Positions 6,381 through 21,145 of a DNA stretch of 64,000 nt are shown here, one piece after another (position 1 is the first letter of the stretch; each line of letters opens with the position of its first letter). A model generated the notes under the pieces. It ran no database searches, was not told the DNA's origin, and worked only from the letters and a program-made list of their open reading frames with translations. This DNA is from Streptomyces erythrochromogenes. GTDB taxonomy: Bacteria; Actinomycetota; Actinomycetes; Streptomycetales; Streptomycetaceae. The stretch covers positions 6,793,501-6,857,500 of the forward strand of contig NZ_CP108036.1 of the NCBI RefSeq assembly GCF_036170895.1, written 5' to 3'. A program made the position numbers and the translations under genes.

Positions 6381-6497
6381 GGTCCCTCCAAATGGTCGCA
6401 ACTGCTCCGTAATGACTACAGAAGTGCATTTCCGCAGAGGAGGCCACTCGGGGAGCCCCTTGAACCCCGCTGGTAGTCTGGGTGACGGCTGTCGACC

Positions 6498-6726
6498 CTG
6501 TGCGGGAGAGTCCTCCGAGTGAGCAAGACGGAGGCGCCGAAGGAGCAAATCCTCCCCGGAATCTCTCAGGCATACGTACCGCACGGACGAGGCCACTCTG
6601 GAAAGCAGGGCGGGTACCGGGCGCGCAGTGCCGGTCCCCCTCCTCACCGACGGTGAAAGCCGGATCTCTCGGGAGACCCCCGTGACTCCGGTGAAACTCT
6701 CAGGTGCAGATGACAGAGGGGGAGGC
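6498..6726 (+). promoter_or_regulatory. Tandem glycine riboswitch upstream of gcvP
   Basis: Two consecutive aptamers are recognisable. The first contains CGGGAGAG (6503-6510), GCCGAAGGAGCAAA, GGAATCTCTCAGGCA and CACTCTGGAAAGC. The second contains CACCGACGGTGAAAGCC, GTGAAACTCTCAGGT and ATGACAGAGGGGGAGG ending near 6726. These are the hallmark segments of the glycine riboswitch, and the downstream gene encodes the glycine decarboxylase P-protein, so glycine should switch the gene on. The ribosome site AGGAGG (6772-6777) lies about 45 bases beyond the second aptamer. Confidence 0.93.
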
Positions 6727-16354: not shown

Positions 16355-16783
16355 TCAGGCGACCAGGCCGGCGAGCTTGCGCAGCGACTCGTTCAGGGCG
16401 GCGGTGGCCGAGTCCTTCAGCTTGCCCGCCATCAGCGAGACGGCGGCCCCGGTGAACTCGCCGTCGATGCGGACGGTGGTGGCCCCGCCGTCCGGCGTCA
16501 GGGTGTAGCGGGTGAGGACGGCGACACCCATCGGGCCCTTGCCGGTGATGGCGAAGAGGCGTTCGTCCTCCAGCTCCGAGACGGTCCAGACGACCTCGGC
16601 CGGGAATCCCATCATCTTCATGTTCTCGGCGAAGGTCGATCCGACCGCCAGGGTCTGCGGACCGCCCTGCGGGAAGTTCGTGTGGGTCATGCTCCACTGC
16701 CCGTACGCGTCCCAGTCCGTCAGCTGGGACCAGAGCTGCGCGGCGGACGCCTCGATGCGTGATTCCGCGGTGACTTCAGCCAT
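16355..16783 (-). CDS. SRPBCC (START-like) family protein
   Basis: A 142-residue single-domain protein of the polyketide cyclase/START-like fold: N-terminal strand AEVTAESRIEASAAQLWSQL followed by DWDAYGQWSMT, the long central sheet with YTLTPDGGATTVRIDGEF, and the amphipathic C-terminal helix ATAALNESLRKLAGLV. These proteins bind hydrophobic ligands. Nothing in the neighbourhood fixes the ligand. It is convergent with padR and divergent from the EamA exporter at 16954, from which it is separated by 170 bases. Confidence 0.85.
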   Translation of the reverse strand: MAEVTAESRIEASAAQLWSQLTDWDAYGQWSMTHTNFPQGGPQTLAVGSTFAENMKMMGFPAEVVWTVSELEDERLFAITGKGPMGVAVLTRYTLTPDGGATTVRIDGEFTGAAVSLMAGKLKDSATAALNESLRKLAGLVA

Positions 16784-16953: not shown

Positions 16954-17916
16954 ATGCAAGCGTCAGGGAAAAACGCCGGACTGGGCCTCGCCCTCGTCTC
17001 GGCGTTCGCGTTCGGTGGTTCCGGAGTGGCTGCGAAGCCGCTGATCGAGGCGGGTCTCGACCCCCTCCACATGGTCTGGCTCAGGGTGGCCGGCGCGGCA
17101 CTCGTGCTGTCCCCGCTGGCCTGGCGCCACCGCGACCTCCTCCTGCGCAGGCCCGCGCTGCTCGCCGGCTTCGGCCTGGTCGCCGTCGCGGGCGTGCAGG
17201 CCTTCTACTTCGCCTCCCTGTCCCGGATCCCGGTCGGCGTGGCCCTGCTGCTGGAGTACCTGGGCCCCGCGCTGCTGCTCGGCTACATCCGTTTCGTGCA
17301 GCGCAAGCCCGTGACGCGCGGGGCCGCCGCCGGTGCGGCCGTGGCCGTCGTCGGCCTGGCCTGCGTGGTCGAGATCTGGGCCGGGCTGAGCCTGGACCTG
17401 CTCGGTGTGCTCTTCGGTCTCGCCGCGGCCTGCTGCCAGGCCTTCTACTTCGTCTTCGCCGACCAGGGCGCCGACGGCGAGGACGCCCCCGACCCGCTCG
17501 GGGTGATCGCCTACGGGATGCTCATCGGCGCGCTGGTGATGACGGTGATCGCCCGGCCGTGGGAGATCGACTGGCAGGTACTGGGAGGGGACGCCTCCGT
17601 CGGCGGCACGATGGTGCCCGCGCCAGTGCTGCTCGGCTGGGTCGTGCTCGTCGCGACCGTCTTCGCCTATGTGACCGGCGTGGTCTCGGTGCGCAGGCTC
17701 TCGCCCCAGGTCGCGGGCGTGGTGGCCTTCCTGGAGGCCGTCGTCGCCACCGTGCTGGCCTGGATCCTGCTCGGCGAGTACCTCTCGACCTGGCAGATCG
17801 TCGGCGGAGCCCTGGTGCTGGGCGGTGCCTTCATCGCACAGTCCTCCCGGCCGACCCCGCAGCCCGCGGCCGAACCGGTCCCGGCGGACCGCGAACCCGC
17901 GAAAGCCCCGCTGTAG
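16954..17916 (+). CDS. EamA/DMT family transporter
   Basis: A 320-residue integral membrane protein with ten predicted helices arranged as two EamA repeats. The first repeat includes FGGSGVAAKPLIEAGLDPLHMVWLRVAGAALVL and SRIPVGVALLLEYLGP; the second ends in VVAFLEAVVATVLAWILLGE, the typical EamA tail, and a Pro-rich cytoplasmic end. Family members export amino acids, metabolites or drugs; the substrate here is not evident. The start lies 6 nt behind a CATGAT -10. Its stop codon overlaps the -10 of the uORF preceding a second EamA gene, so the two exporters are adjacent but independently promoted. Confidence 0.88.
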   Translation: MQASGKNAGLGLALVSAFAFGGSGVAAKPLIEAGLDPLHMVWLRVAGAALVLSPLAWRHRDLLLRRPALLAGFGLVAVAGVQAFYFASLSRIPVGVALLLEYLGPALLLGYIRFVQRKPVTRGAAAGAAVAVVGLACVVEIWAGLSLDLLGVLFGLAAACCQAFYFVFADQGADGEDAPDPLGVIAYGMLIGALVMTVIARPWEIDWQVLGGDASVGGTMVPAPVLLGWVVLVATVFAYVTGVVSVRRLSPQVAGVVAFLEAVVATVLAWILLGEYLSTWQIVGGALVLGGAFIAQSSRPTPQPAAEPVPADREPAKAPL

Positions 17917-17919
17917 GGT
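17914..17919 (+). promoter_or_regulatory. -10 (TAGGGT) of the uORF transcript
   Basis: TAGGGT overlaps the stop codon of the upstream EamA gene and lies 7 bases before ATG 17927, with no Shine-Dalgarno, the same spacing seen at several other starts in the window. Confidence 0.6.
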
Positions 17920-17926
17920 GGCGGGC

Positions 17927-17962
17927 ATGCATTCGACCGTGCTTCCGCCTCCCGCGTCCTAG
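17927..17962 (+). CDS. 11-residue leader peptide (uORF) with Pro-Pro-Pro
   Basis: ATG CAT TCG ACC GTG CTT... encodes MHSTVLPPPAS followed by TAG at 17960-17962. It is probably translated from a leaderless RNA, since TAGGGT sits 7 bases upstream and there is no ribosome site. Three consecutive prolines are the classic context for ribosome pausing relieved by EF-P. The stop codon touches the first base of a long structured hairpin, so a stalled or terminating ribosome would directly affect folding. I interpret it as a regulatory leader for the EamA gene at 18077; expression is inferred, not shown. Confidence 0.55.
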   Translation: MHSTVLPPPAS

Positions 17963-18026
17963 CGGGCGGCGCCCCCACGACGACGACCCGGCCCGGGGAG
18001 TACCCGGGCGGGTCGGTGCTGCCCGC
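17962..18026 (+). promoter_or_regulatory. Two-tier leader hairpin before EamA gene
   Basis: Outer arms GCGGGCGGCGCC (17962-17973) and GGTGCTGCCCGC (18015-18026) pair over 12 positions including two G-U. Inner arms GACCCG-g-CCCGGG (17985-17997) and CCCGGGCGGGTC (18003-18014) pair over 12 bp with one bulged G and a GAGTA loop. An 11-base one-sided internal loop joins the tiers. The directly preceding uORF suggests ribosome-controlled attenuation or translation control. Confidence 0.65.
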
Positions 18027-18076
18027 GAAGCGATGACCCGATCCACTCATCCTTCACGCACGCGCGGAGAACACAC

Positions 18077-19093
18077 GTGTCGAACCACTCGCCCGCTGCC
18101 GGGCGCAGTCTGCTGTACCTCGTCGTCGCCGGAGCCGCCTGGGGCACCGCCGGGGCGGCCGCCTCCCTCCTCTTCCTGGCCAGTGACCTCGGCCCGCTCG
18201 CCCTGTCGTTCTGGCGGTGCGCGGGCGGGCTCGTCGTGCTGCTCGGGGTGCTCGCCGTACGGCGGGCCCACTCCGGGCGGGGGCGGGCCAGGCCTGCTGC
18301 GGGTGTGGCCTCGCCGGGTTCGCCCTCGGCGGGCTCGCTGATCGTCACCGGGCTGCTGTTCACCCTCTTCCAGGCCGCCTACTTCGCCGCGGTCCGCGAG
18401 ACCGGGCTGGCCGTCGGCACCGTGGTCACCCTCGGCGCCGGGCCCGTGCTCATCGCGCTCGGCGCGCGCTCCTGGATGGGGGAACGACTCGGCCGCGGCG
18501 GTGCGCTCGCCGTCGCGGGGGCGCTCGCCGGACTCGCCGTCCTGGTCCTGGGCAGCGGTGGCGCCGAGGTGCGCCCGCTCGGCGTCGGCTGGGCGCTGCT
18601 GTCGGCGGCCGGGTACGCCGGGATGACCCTGCGGGCCCGCCGGCTCGGGCAGCGCGGGGCGGCCGGCGATCCGCTGGTGACCACCGCCTGGTCCGTGGCG
18701 GTGGGCGCGGTGTGCCTGCTGCCGCTCGCCGCGGCGGAGGGGCTGCTGCCGCACACCGCGGACCTGGGCCGGGTGCTCTGGCTGCTGCTGTACGTCGCCA
18801 CCGTGCCGACGGCGCTGGCGTACGCGCTCTACTTCACGGGCGCCGCGGCCGTGCGCGCCGCGACCGTCTCGGTGATCATGCTGATCGAGCCGGTGAGCGC
18901 GGCGGCGATCGCCGTCCTCGTCCTCGGGGAGCGGCTGACCGGCGCCGTGGTGCTGGGCACCGTACTGCTGCTGACGGCGGTCGGTGCGCTGATCGCCGCG
19001 GAGTCCCGCCGTCCAGCGGGCGGACCCGCTGGGCCCGCCGAGCCGGCCGGATCCGCCGCCGTACGGCCGGCTCCTCAGAGCGCGGCGAGGTAG
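18077..19093 (+). CDS. EamA/DMT family transporter with structured leader
   Basis: A 338-residue ten-helix transporter starting at GTG 18077 with GGAGAA 6-8 nt upstream. The first EamA repeat has [19 protein letters not shown] and [19 protein letters not shown], the second [20 protein letters not shown] followed by a Gly/Pro/Ala tail. It is preceded by the Pro-Pro-Pro uORF and two-tier hairpin, so its expression is probably set post-initiation. Its last 19 bases overlap the convergent PPOX gene. Substrate unknown; a compound whose level influences translation of the leader would fit. Confidence 0.87.
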
Positions 19094-19773
19094 TCCGGCA
19101 GGGCGATGCCGGGGTCCAGGTCGGCGGCGGGCACGGGGGTCCCGTACGTCGTGCCGACCGGGACCACGCCCGCCCAGTGCGGCAGGCCCAGGTCCTCGGC
19201 GTCGTCGTTCGACGGTCCCGTACGGAGCTTCGCGGACACCTCGTCCAGGTCCACCCGGATCACCGCGGTGGCGGCGAGCTCCTTGGCGTTGGCCGGCCGC
19301 ACGTCGCCGGAACGGCCCGGGGCGACGGCGTCGATCATGGCGTCCAGGGCCGTCCGGCACTCCTCCTCGTCGGTCACCTGGTGGGCGGTGCCGTGGACGA
19401 CCACCGAGCGGTAATTGAGCGAGTGGTGGAAGGCCGAGCGGGCCAGCACCAGGCCGTCCACGTGGGTGACGGTGACGCAGACGGGCAGGCCCGGGTCGGT
19501 GCGGCCGGCCGCGAGCAGCGGGCGGGATCCGGTGGAACCGTGCATGTAGAGCGCTTCCCCGACCCGGGCGAACAGCGTCGGCAGGACAACCGGCGCGCCG
19601 TCGCGGACGTAGCCGAGGTGGCAGATGTAGGCCTCGTCGAGTATCGAGTGCACCGTCTCGCGGTCGTAGCGCGCCCGGTCGCGGGAGCGGGTGGGGACCG
19701 TGCGGTCGGTGGGATCGTACGCACCGGTCGTCCCGGTACTGTCCGTCGTCTCCGTGGCAGGCGTGGCGGTCAT
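19075..19773 (-). CDS. Pyridoxamine 5'-phosphate oxidase family protein
   Basis: A 232-residue split-barrel flavoprotein of the PPOX superfamily (COG3467-like). The core has [37 protein letters not shown], then [33 protein letters not shown], the FMN-binding pattern of this branch. ATG 19773 has GGAG 8 nt upstream. It is divergent from a MocR-type regulator 28 bases away, the arrangement typical of MocR-controlled vitamin-B6 or flavin genes, so it is probably that regulator's main target. The C-terminus overlaps the convergent EamA gene by 19 bases. Confidence 0.87.
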
Positions 19774-19787
19774 GGTGCGAACTCCAT

Positions 19788-19804
19788 TGCACTAGTGCAT
19801 AATG
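19788..19804. promoter_or_regulatory. Shared MocR/PPOX operator-promoter palindrome
   Basis: TGCACTAGTGCA (19788-19799) is a perfect 12-bp palindrome at the centre of the 28-base divergent intergenic region. On the plus strand CATAAT (19798-19803) and on the minus strand CATTAT (19804-19799) are overlapping -10 elements at its edge. A further half-site GTGCTAG lies at 19811-19817. Confidence 0.7.
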
Positions 19805-21145
19805 TGGTTTGTGCTAGGAGAGTATCGGATCGCAGGGCGTCGCACATCTGAAATCGCGGCCAGCGTCGAGGCGGGCGTCGCGTCGGGCGAACTGCCGCCC
19901 GGATCGCTGCTGCCGCCGATGCGGGAGCTGGCGGGCGTGCTGGGCGTCAATCCCAACACCGTGGCGGCCGCCTACAGGACACTGCGCGAGCGCGGGGTCA
20001 TCGAAACGGACGGGCGGCGCGGGAGCCGCGTGCGCTCCCGCCCGGCGAGCACCCCGCGGGACGCGCTGCGGATGGTGGTGCCGGCGGGCGTGCGCGACAT
20101 CGCGGAGGGCAATCCGGACGTGTCGCTGCTCCCCGCGCTGGACGGGGCGCTGGCGGCCGCCGCCCTCCGCCACGGGCGTTCGCCCACCCTCTACGGCGCG
20201 GACCCGGTCGCGCCCGACCTGGCGCGGATCGCCCGCGCCGACTTCGACGCGGACGGGGTGCCGCCCGGGCCGGTCGCGGTGACCTCGGGTGCACTGGACG
20301 CCATCGAACGGGTCCTGGCCGCCCACCTGAGGCCCGGCGACGCGGTGGCGGTCGAGGATCCGGGCTGGGGCGGCTCGCTCGACCTGGTCCCCGCCCTCGG
20401 GCTGCGGGTGCTGCCGGTGGCGGTGGACGACGACGGGCCACAGGCCGACGCGGTGGCCCGGGCCCTCGACGCAGGGGCGCGGGCACTGGTGGTGACCTCC
20501 CGGGCGCAGAACCCGACCGGCGCGGCGGTGGGCGCGCAGCGGGCGGGGGAGCTGCGGGAGCTGCTGGCGCGCCATCCCGGCGTGCTGCTGATCGAGGACG
20601 ACCACGGGCACGGGATCGTCGACCTGCCGGTCCATCCGCTGGGCGGGGTGACCCGGCACTGGGTGATGATCCGGTCCACGGCCAAGGCGTACGGGCCCGA
20701 CCTGCGGCTCGCCGTGCTGACCGGCGACGAGGTGACCCTGGACCGGGTGCGGGGACGCCAACGGCTGGGCCCGGGGTGGGTGAGCCGGCTGCTGCAACAC
20801 GCGGTGGTCGAGCTGTGGACCTCGCACGCCGTCGACCGGACGGCGGTCGCGCGGGCCTATGGGGAGCGGCGGGACGCCCTGGTCGAGGCCCTGCGGGAGC
20901 GGGGGGTGCGGGCGCACGGGCGGACCGGGTTGAACGTGTGGGTGCCGGTGGCCGACGAGACGGTGGTGGTCACGAGGCTGCTCGCCGCGGGGTGGGGGGT
21001 GGCACCCGGGGCCATCTTCCGTGTCGAGGCGGGACCGGGGGTGCGGCTGACGGTGTCCCAGCTGGCGGTGGCGGAGGTGCCGGCGCTGGCCGACGCCGTG
21101 GCCGCGGCGGTCCGGCCCGGCCTGCCGGGCGGGCGCAACGACTGA
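19802..21145 (+). CDS. MocR-type GntR/aminotransferase regulator
   Basis: A 447-residue fusion of a GntR winged helix and an aspartate-aminotransferase-like domain. The HTH spans about residues 10-75 (RRTSEIAASVEAGV, SLLPPMRELAGVLGVNPNTVAAAYRTL); the large domain binds PLP through Lys295 in RSTAKAYGPDLRL and keeps SRAQNPTGA. Such proteins sense PLP or amino-acid adducts. ATG 19802 is listed, but it overlaps a CATAAT -10 (19798-19803); the GTG at 19811, 7 bases beyond that -10, may be the true leaderless start, removing three residues. The divergent PPOX-family gene is the likely target. A 19-bp terminator stem follows at 21196-21237. Confidence 0.9.
   Translation: MWFVLGEYRIAGRRTSEIAASVEAGVASGELPPGSLLPPMRELAGVLGVNPNTVAAAYRTLRERGVIETDGRRGSRVRSRPASTPRDALRMVVPAGVRDIAEGNPDVSLLPALDGALAAAALRHGRSPTLYGADPVAPDLARIARADFDADGVPPGPVAVTSGALDAIERVLAAHLRPGDAVAVEDPGWGGSLDLVPALGLRVLPVAVDDDGPQADAVARALDAGARALVVTSRAQNPTGAAVGAQRAGELRELLARHPGVLLIEDDHGHGIVDLPVHPLGGVTRHWVMIRSTAKAYGPDLRLAVLTGDEVTLDRVRGRQRLGPGWVSRLLQHAVVELWTSHAVDRTAVARAYGERRDALVEALRERGVRAHGRTGLNVWVPVADETVVVTRLLAAGWGVAPGAIFRVEAGPGVRLTVSQLAVAEVPALADAVAAAVRPGLPGGRND

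Follow-up and report, generated by a model that had tools for sequence, protein, structure and literature searches.

The locus considered here raises the question of whether ribosomes travelling over a very short, proline-rich upstream open reading frame (uORF) decide if the exporter gene behind it is translated. The window (the whole stretch of DNA analysed, 64,000 nucleotides from Streptomyces erythrochromogenes) contains a tandem pair of EamA genes, 16954-17916 and 18077-19093, and the leader under study lies between them. We consider this leader to be, more likely than not, a translational attenuator: a ribosome retained on the uORF would cover codons complementary to the exporter Shine-Dalgarno sequence (anti-SD codons) and thereby free the exporter ribosome binding site (RBS). 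Its parts, in order along the forward strand, are:

16954-17916, + strand: upstream EamA paralog (PF00892), with its TAG stop inside the -10 hexamer
17914-17919, + strand: TAGGGT, -10 hexamer of the proposed leaderless promoter, seven bases before the uORF ATG
17927-17962, + strand: leaderless uORF of 11 codons, MHSTVLPPPAS, with ATG at 17927 and stop TAG at 17960-17962; conserved at the codon level across 129 leaders
17936-17947, + strand: Thr-Val-Leu-Pro1 codons, the proposed anti-SD, from the fit of the Val codon to the exporter SD region
17945-17953, + strand: Pro-Pro-Pro codons, the proposed pause site; the amino acids Pro2 and Pro3 are invariant (126/126)
17948-17956, + strand: element 1, the Pro2-Pro3-Ala codons, predicted to pair with the post-stop bases (Pro3 fit; Pro2 z of -3.1)
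17962-17973, + strand: element 2, the 5' arm of the 12-position outer stem, GCGGGCGGCGCC, opposite element 3; from the window sequence, the minimum-energy fold and the folded representatives
17985-18014, + strand: inner stem and loop, with arms GACCCGGCCCGGG (17985-17997) and CCCGGGCGGGTC (18003-18014)
18015-18026, + strand: element 3, the 3' arm of the outer stem, GGTGCTGCCCGC; the SD context can also lie opposite its CCCGC (18022-18026)
18066-18069, + strand: exporter SD, GGAG, read from the window sequence and hidden in the full-length fold of the window leader
18077-19093, + strand: EamA/DMT exporter gene with a GTG start (PF00892); relatives are named DMT or EamA family transporter

The positions originally given for TAGGGT, the uORF and both stems agree with the window sequence, and the two-tier hairpin begins at the G of the uORF stop TAG. 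From the hexamer and its spacing, transcription is predicted to start at 17927. The nearest named relatives of the exporter belong to Streptomyces erythrochromogenes (96% identity). It scores below the cut-off of named amino-acid exporter models and is assigned to the EamA family only; a sequence search for a solved relative returned none at E 1. The only Rfam match in the window is a glycine riboswitch aptamer elsewhere (6493-6591, + strand, 68 bits); nothing approaches threshold in 17880-18100. The neighborhood also includes a protein on the minus strand (16355-16783) above the NCBIfam cut-off for an Rv0910-family “type II toxin” model, a name that may be loose given that Pfam places the protein among polyketide cyclase/START-like proteins. 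On the 3' side of the exporter (19075-21145) lie a pyridoxamine-phosphate-oxidase-like gene (- strand) and a GntR/aminotransferase (MocR-type) regulator (+ strand), and a link of these genes to the exporter is possible.

The leader is found well beyond this genome. A blastn search with 17880-18140 gave matches in 37 of 100 relatives at E ≤0.001, weak ones included, and in divergent genomes the matches span approximately 17914-18026 (query positions 35-147 or so). A leader profile, R1, was built from an alignment of 42 leaders on which RNAalifold predicts 5 pairs only; this consensus fold is uninformative, and R1 is therefore in effect a sequence profile. Within the genus it matches 78 of 101 genomes; for the family the count is 42 of 81, spread over 10 of 17 genera (E up to 0.01). 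The loci assembled number 139, comprising 115 recovered with the leader model and 24 named ones, some of which repeat G genomes. Since the 24 were reached through the exporter protein, the downstream exporter counts as a finding for the 115 only, and there an ortholog follows the leader in 114, the exception being a weak match. An EamA homolog is also present upstream in 121 of the 139 loci; no upstream paralog is seen in the remaining 18, for some of which the stretch is short. Twenty-three genus genomes have no R1 match, and 17 of the 20 searched for the exporter do not have it at 1e-20. Genomes G037 and G017 carry an exporter homolog with a diverged Pro-Pro uORF missed by R1, and G032 has a distant homolog without such a uORF. 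As far as these genomes can tell, leader and exporter go together across the genus.

At the level of the class, R1 extended little past the family: it matched 9 of 98 genomes, of which 5 belong to the genus and 3, from family f19, were confirmed as leaders (f19 to f30 are family labels assigned by the tool); a match in G094 (E 0.0088) has neither uORF nor exporter. The exporter query reached further, with matches in 75 of 296 genomes, including 51 that do not belong to the genus. Upstream regions were read in 47 of these 51 (all save G275, G312, G324 and G359), and 34 have a short Pro-Pro uORF before the distant EamA homolog, preceded in 32 cases by TANNNT 5-8 bases before the start. The 13 homologs lacking the uORF form an incomplete count of absences, because at least three of the matches (L235, L241, L253) begin inside the gene. 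Distant uORFs include MPLIVSPPPAR, MSSTVLSPPAA, MHRTHPITPPPAL, MHRCFPITPPPRS, and VNSRVLPLGILPPPVV, and those of Streptomyces glaucescens and Embleya scabrispora, also before distant EamA homologs, read VDQYRITCPPPRS and MHHTWAVCPPPRH, respectively. The genus, family and class searches thus bear out the leader as a real, conserved element with a range wider than the genus, and other actinobacterial families have Pro-Pro uORFs whose RNA sequence is different.

The uORF itself was compared in 129 distinct leaders, which are the 139 loci minus identical leaders and dropped rows: G210 (the weak match without an exporter), two loci with no usable exporter start, and one with no TANNNT. The spacer between TANNNT and the start is 7 bases in 107 leaders, 6 in 16, and 8 in 6, and a -35-like sequence is present in 88. 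The uORFs are 10-16 codons long and end in TAG (64), TGA (54), or TAA (11), and in 126 of the 129 the spacing between Pro-Pro and the stop is constant. Among these 126 in-register leaders, the first two bases of the Pro2 and Pro3 codons never vary. The third base is free, being T in 72, G in 41, and C in 13 for Pro2 and C in 78, G in 31, and T in 17 for Pro3, and the combination of fixed and free positions indicates selection on the peptide. This selection acts on Pro-Pro more than on the Pro-Pro-Pro motif of the original prediction: the pair is invariant, whereas the first position is Pro in 117 leaders and is replaced by Ser (7), Ala (1), or Leu (1) in the other 9. Pairwise differences within the L-P-P-P-A codons amount to 15603 synonymous against 2284 nonsynonymous. 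That the uORF behaves as a coding sequence is strongly supported by these comparisons. As a background check on the fetched loci, a leaderless-looking uORF of 6-24 amino acids precedes 169 of 543 SD-bearing ORFs, and one ending in xPP near the stop precedes 166 of 543; among the 60 uORF endings listed, all but one resemble exporter leaders, the exception being an antisense ORF in L003.

Several uORFs have features of their own. Genome G025 has two exporter copies (L140, L143), each with a four-proline uORF, MQLCLTPPPPAA and MQLFLTPPPPAS. In L231 (genome G314), the uORF runs past the usual stop position to 24 amino acids, apparently owing to a Pro run that is one base short compared with relatives; this may be either a natural variant or a sequencing error. 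In 85 of the 126 leaders, Pro2 (17948-17950 in the window) is CCU or CCC followed by C, a sequon linked with +1 frameshifting according to excerpts of PMC8129111.

The stems recur as well. The minimum-energy RNA fold of 17928-18076 includes both the outer and the inner stem, and its stability corresponds to a z of -3.92 against dinucleotide shuffles, none of 200 being equally stable. Leaders were also folded as one representative (the first member) for each of 51 of 54 clusters, 3 longer ones being left out. At least 5 pairs of the outer stem (mean 10.9) and at least 5 of the inner stem form in 51 of 51, the set leaning towards the stem because every member was chosen for a TGCC[CT]G 3' arm. 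The mean z is -2.46 against mononucleotide shuffles, with z below -1 in 46 of 51. Fifteen diverse leaders share an arrangement despite differing sequences, in which the Pro codons pair with post-stop bases and the stop lies at or near the loop. The core of the outer stem is invariant and gives no covariation signal in duplex energies upon swapping of arms among the 54 clusters, where the mean fraction for elements 2 and 3 is 0.485. Sixteen of the 129 leaders were set aside in the analysis of the 3' arm, 11 for having no such arm by the strict pattern, though a near variant or other sequence is present, and the rest for length, a missing SD, or a cut end. The expectation that orthologs would keep both the uORF and intact stems is thus mainly borne out, with the reservation that some leaders have lost the 3' arm. 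Likewise, the two tiers of the proposed hairpin do recur in relatives, but the hairpin would be only one of alternative states.

Two other pairings were considered and set aside. Pairing of TTCGAC in the uORF with GTCGAA at the exporter start, seen in the window fold, was rejected as a general rule on cluster counts: both halves are present in only 4 of the 54 clusters, one or the other in 6 and 13, and neither in 31. Visual inspection of several lineages also suggested a local hairpin at element 3 (GTCGC..GCGAC), for which the signal upon arm swapping is weak (0.416). Among unusual leaders, L099 (genome G122) has additional sequence, including a separate inverted repeat, inserted after the uORF stop and ahead of the outer stem, placing the 3' arm 115 bases from the stop against the usual 60 or so. 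In loci of family f21 (e.g., L225-L230), the uORF is followed by a strong GC-rich hairpin and then CTTCTTCG, which looks more terminator-like than anything seen in Streptomyces leaders.

Synonymous codon choice bears on the alternative states. Leu is CTT in 79 of 126 leaders, Val is GTT in 48, and Pro2 is CCT in 72, compared with 1.4%, 1.7%, and 4.3%, respectively, in exporter genes, so that the Leu and Val codons at the proposed SD-pairing positions are very rare ones. A codon-fit test asked if, among synonymous alternatives, the codon in use is the one that pairs best with a given partner, partners being permuted 1000 times, in 171 of 174 leaders (68 clusters; L231 not included). Against the SD region of its own exporter, the Val codon ranks first or equal first in 47 of 68 clusters, with a mean rank of 0.227 against 0.379 permuted, and Pro3 has a mean rank of 0.145 against 0.285 with the post-stop bases; in neither case was any of 1000 permutations as low. 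Crossed controls show no such fit, as 851 of 1000 permutations are as good for Val with the post-stop bases and 555 of 1000 for Pro3 with the SD region. Two further fits point the same way, that of Pro2 to the post-stop bases (z of -3.1) and that of the Thr position to the SD region (z of -2.6). Fits are weak for Leu and Pro1 with the SD region (z of -1.7 and -1.3), the two Ala positions with the post-stop bases have z of -1.7 (Ala1) and -1.3 (Ala2), and Pro2 with the SD region fits slightly worse than swapped partners (z of +2.1). The Val and Pro3 results survive the total of thirteen tests; the permutations ignore the kinship that remains after clustering, which the crossed controls share. 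An earlier test restricted to Streptomycetaceae agrees, with 37 of 49 clusters best or tied and a mean rank of 0.153 against 0.354 (sd 0.040).

Element 3 offers a further route to the SD. A context of GCGGAG or GYGGGAG, which fits the CCCGC of the 3' arm, surrounds the SD in 39 of 54 clusters and in 35 of 210 control SDs. When 200 of these controls were used for ranking, the own SD fell in the best fifth for 35 of 54 clusters; the context does not fit element 3 in 15 of 54. The codon statistics show two pairings that are apparently written in synonymous codons, Val with the exporter SD and Pro3 with the post-stop bases. Translational attenuators are recognized by (i) a conserved, translated short uORF upstream of the gene, (ii) alternative pairings, one of which hides the SD of that gene, and (iii) a change in expression of the gene when ribosomes stall; on comparative grounds the leader appears to have the first two, with translation of the uORF predicted from codon-level conservation and leaderless spacing, and it would be expected to show the third. 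RNA pairing would here override codon bias within a uORF whose peptide is itself constrained, and searches for this signature could reveal more leaders.

The proposed mechanism follows from these pairings. Transcription would begin at or beside the uORF ATG, and the ribosome would therefore enter the uORF without an SD. On an empty uORF, the Thr-Val-Leu-Pro codons would pair with the exporter SD and the Pro-Pro-Ala codons with element 2 just after the stop, leaving element 3 able to pair with the SD context as well, and the exporter would be OFF. Given a ribosome footprint of about 15 bases to either side, placing Pro2 in the P site would cover both halves of the uORF, and slowing or stalling at Pro-Pro would mask both codon sets; the SD would be released from the uORF, element 2 would capture element 3, and the exporter would be translated. 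A fast-passing ribosome would let the SD be hidden again. With the SD free of the uORF and element 2 free for element 3, a slow ribosome should mean ON, and since uORF codons can hide the exporter RBS, slowing of ribosomes on the uORF is probably what leads to exporter synthesis. We infer a stall at Pro-Pro, a slow ribosome as the ON state, and translation as the level of control. The original prediction was that ribosome position on the uORF could decide how the leader folds, and it described a two-tier hairpin. The former is strongly supported by comparison, namely by codon-level conservation of the peptide, recurring stems, and codon fit; the latter would be one state among others, and the likely OFF state consists of uORF codons and the 3' arm paired with the exporter SD.

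Folding with a ribosome in place is consistent with occupancy as the determinant. For the window leader, the modelled accessibility of the SD is 0.02 naked, 0.74 with the uORF removed, and 0.64 with a ribosome at the stop. Over 126 leaders, the means for the naked, stalled, and terminating states are 0.16, 0.27, and 0.25, and folding separates occupied from naked leaders but not stalled from terminating ones, with 25 of the 126 favoring the stall and 18 termination. In 62 leaders, mean accessibility is 0.187 naked, 0.28-0.31 with the ribosome at -5 to +3 codons from Pro2, and about 0.20 after the ribosome has moved beyond the stop. A ribosome at Pro2 raises accessibility by more than 0.1 in 29 of the 62 and lowers it by more than 0.1 in 5. 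Modelled opening is about equal at any uORF position in these 62 leaders, and Pro-Pro is not singled out.

Since uORF position has no clear effect, a general sensor of translation stress or antibiotics, of the toiL or erm kind, remains a serious rival even though we hold it to be doubtful. Ribosomes parked by an inhibitor at any codon would open the SD, with Pro-Pro as a built-in slow step; the downstream gene is an exporter, and toiL operates in such a way (PMC12121999). Such a sensor has no need of a Pro-Pro motif kept at constant spacing from the stop, which is nonetheless the most conserved feature and recurs in unrelated leaders. The three adjacent Pro codons also recall a classical amino-acid attenuator, in which a shortage of prolyl-tRNA stalls the ribosome and reports low proline, and leaderless amino-acid leaders are known from S. 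lividans (PMC8079986, in part). This explanation is quite unlikely, however, as exporting a scarce amino acid makes little sense, the first Pro is replaceable (9/126), and the exporter does not reach the cut-off of any named model for amino-acid exporters.

Control could instead lie in transcription, with the alternative hairpins acting as terminator and antiterminator. The pairing of element 2 with either element 1 or element 3 resembles trp-type leaders, and the f21 loci have their strong hairpin followed by CTTCTTCG. We regard this as unlikely, because no T run follows any stem in the window and because a terminator would have no need for codons fitted to the SD region as such; the combination of GC-rich hairpin and T run that marks an intrinsic terminator is thus absent from the window, and f21 may differ. 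The stem is GC-rich and begins 46 bases past the stop of the upstream EamA gene, as would suit a mere terminator of that gene with an incidental uORF. Conservation of the uORF at the codon level makes this very improbable, as does the association of the element with the downstream gene in 114 of 115 loci, the upstream paralog not being seen in 18 of 139 (some stretches short).

For the translational attenuator that we prefer, possible signals are a drop in EF-P activity, a shortage of prolyl-tRNA, and an inhibitor. A broader proposal, which we advance tentatively and with less than even confidence, is that the leader is a widespread actinobacterial sensor of polyproline translation capacity (EF-P or prolyl-tRNA) that controls a family of EamA exporters. 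With the anti-SD placed in synonymous codons of a Pro-Pro uORF, the same few codons would be both sensor and lock. Such a sensor would add a leader class with polyproline synthesis as its input and would give an EamA exporter a testable signal. Streptomyces proteins average more than one Pro-Pro motif each, as stated in excerpts of PMC8129111, and in Actinobacteria EF-P accumulates in early stationary phase (partial text of PMC11611912), which makes an EF-P signal testable.

Known systems share parts of this design, toiL and mgtQ coming closest in the way they work. In the erm and cat translational attenuators, a ribosome stalled with bound drug on a leader peptide frees a sequestered SD. The same stall-frees-SD logic would apply here, the difference being a drug-bound stall in erm and cat versus an intrinsically slow Pro-Pro. 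In the E. coli topAI-yjhQ leader, ribosomes stalled on the toiL uORF refold a hidden RBS such that the next gene is translated (PMC12121999), much as proposed here; unlike toiL, the present leader has a leaderless start, Pro-Pro near the stop, an anti-SD within the uORF codons, and an exporter as its target. The mgtQ uORF of Salmonella mgtB is similar in that translation of a very short ORF releases the RBS of a transporter, but it needs its Asp and Glu codons rather than its Pro codon, is located within an operon, and acts on a gene for a Mg2+ transporter (PMC8092293). RAPP-like arrest peptides are likewise regulatory and have Pro-Pro near the end; as covered in excerpts of PMC12992588, they carry R-A-P-P-like motifs before protein-localization genes, whereas the uORFs described here are of 10-16 residues and end in x-L-P-P-P-A-x-stop before an exporter. 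With x-L-P-P-P-A before an EamA gene, these uORFs fall outside the RAPP-like group.

The leaderless amino-acid leaders of S. lividans also consist of a leaderless short ORF followed by hairpins in Streptomyces. They precede genes for amino-acid biosynthesis, tRNA ligases, or import, and the eight listed in PMC8079986 include neither a Pro leader nor one that stands before an EamA gene. A survey reports eight uORF candidates, and its main text never mentions “EamA” (PMC11109978). No paper describing a Pro-Pro uORF before an EamA gene was found among open-licence PMC texts. We file the locus under a known kind of regulation, leader-uORF attenuation; the new part is the Pro-Pro uORF, whose codons themselves would supply the anti-SD and which is associated with a family of EamA exporters.
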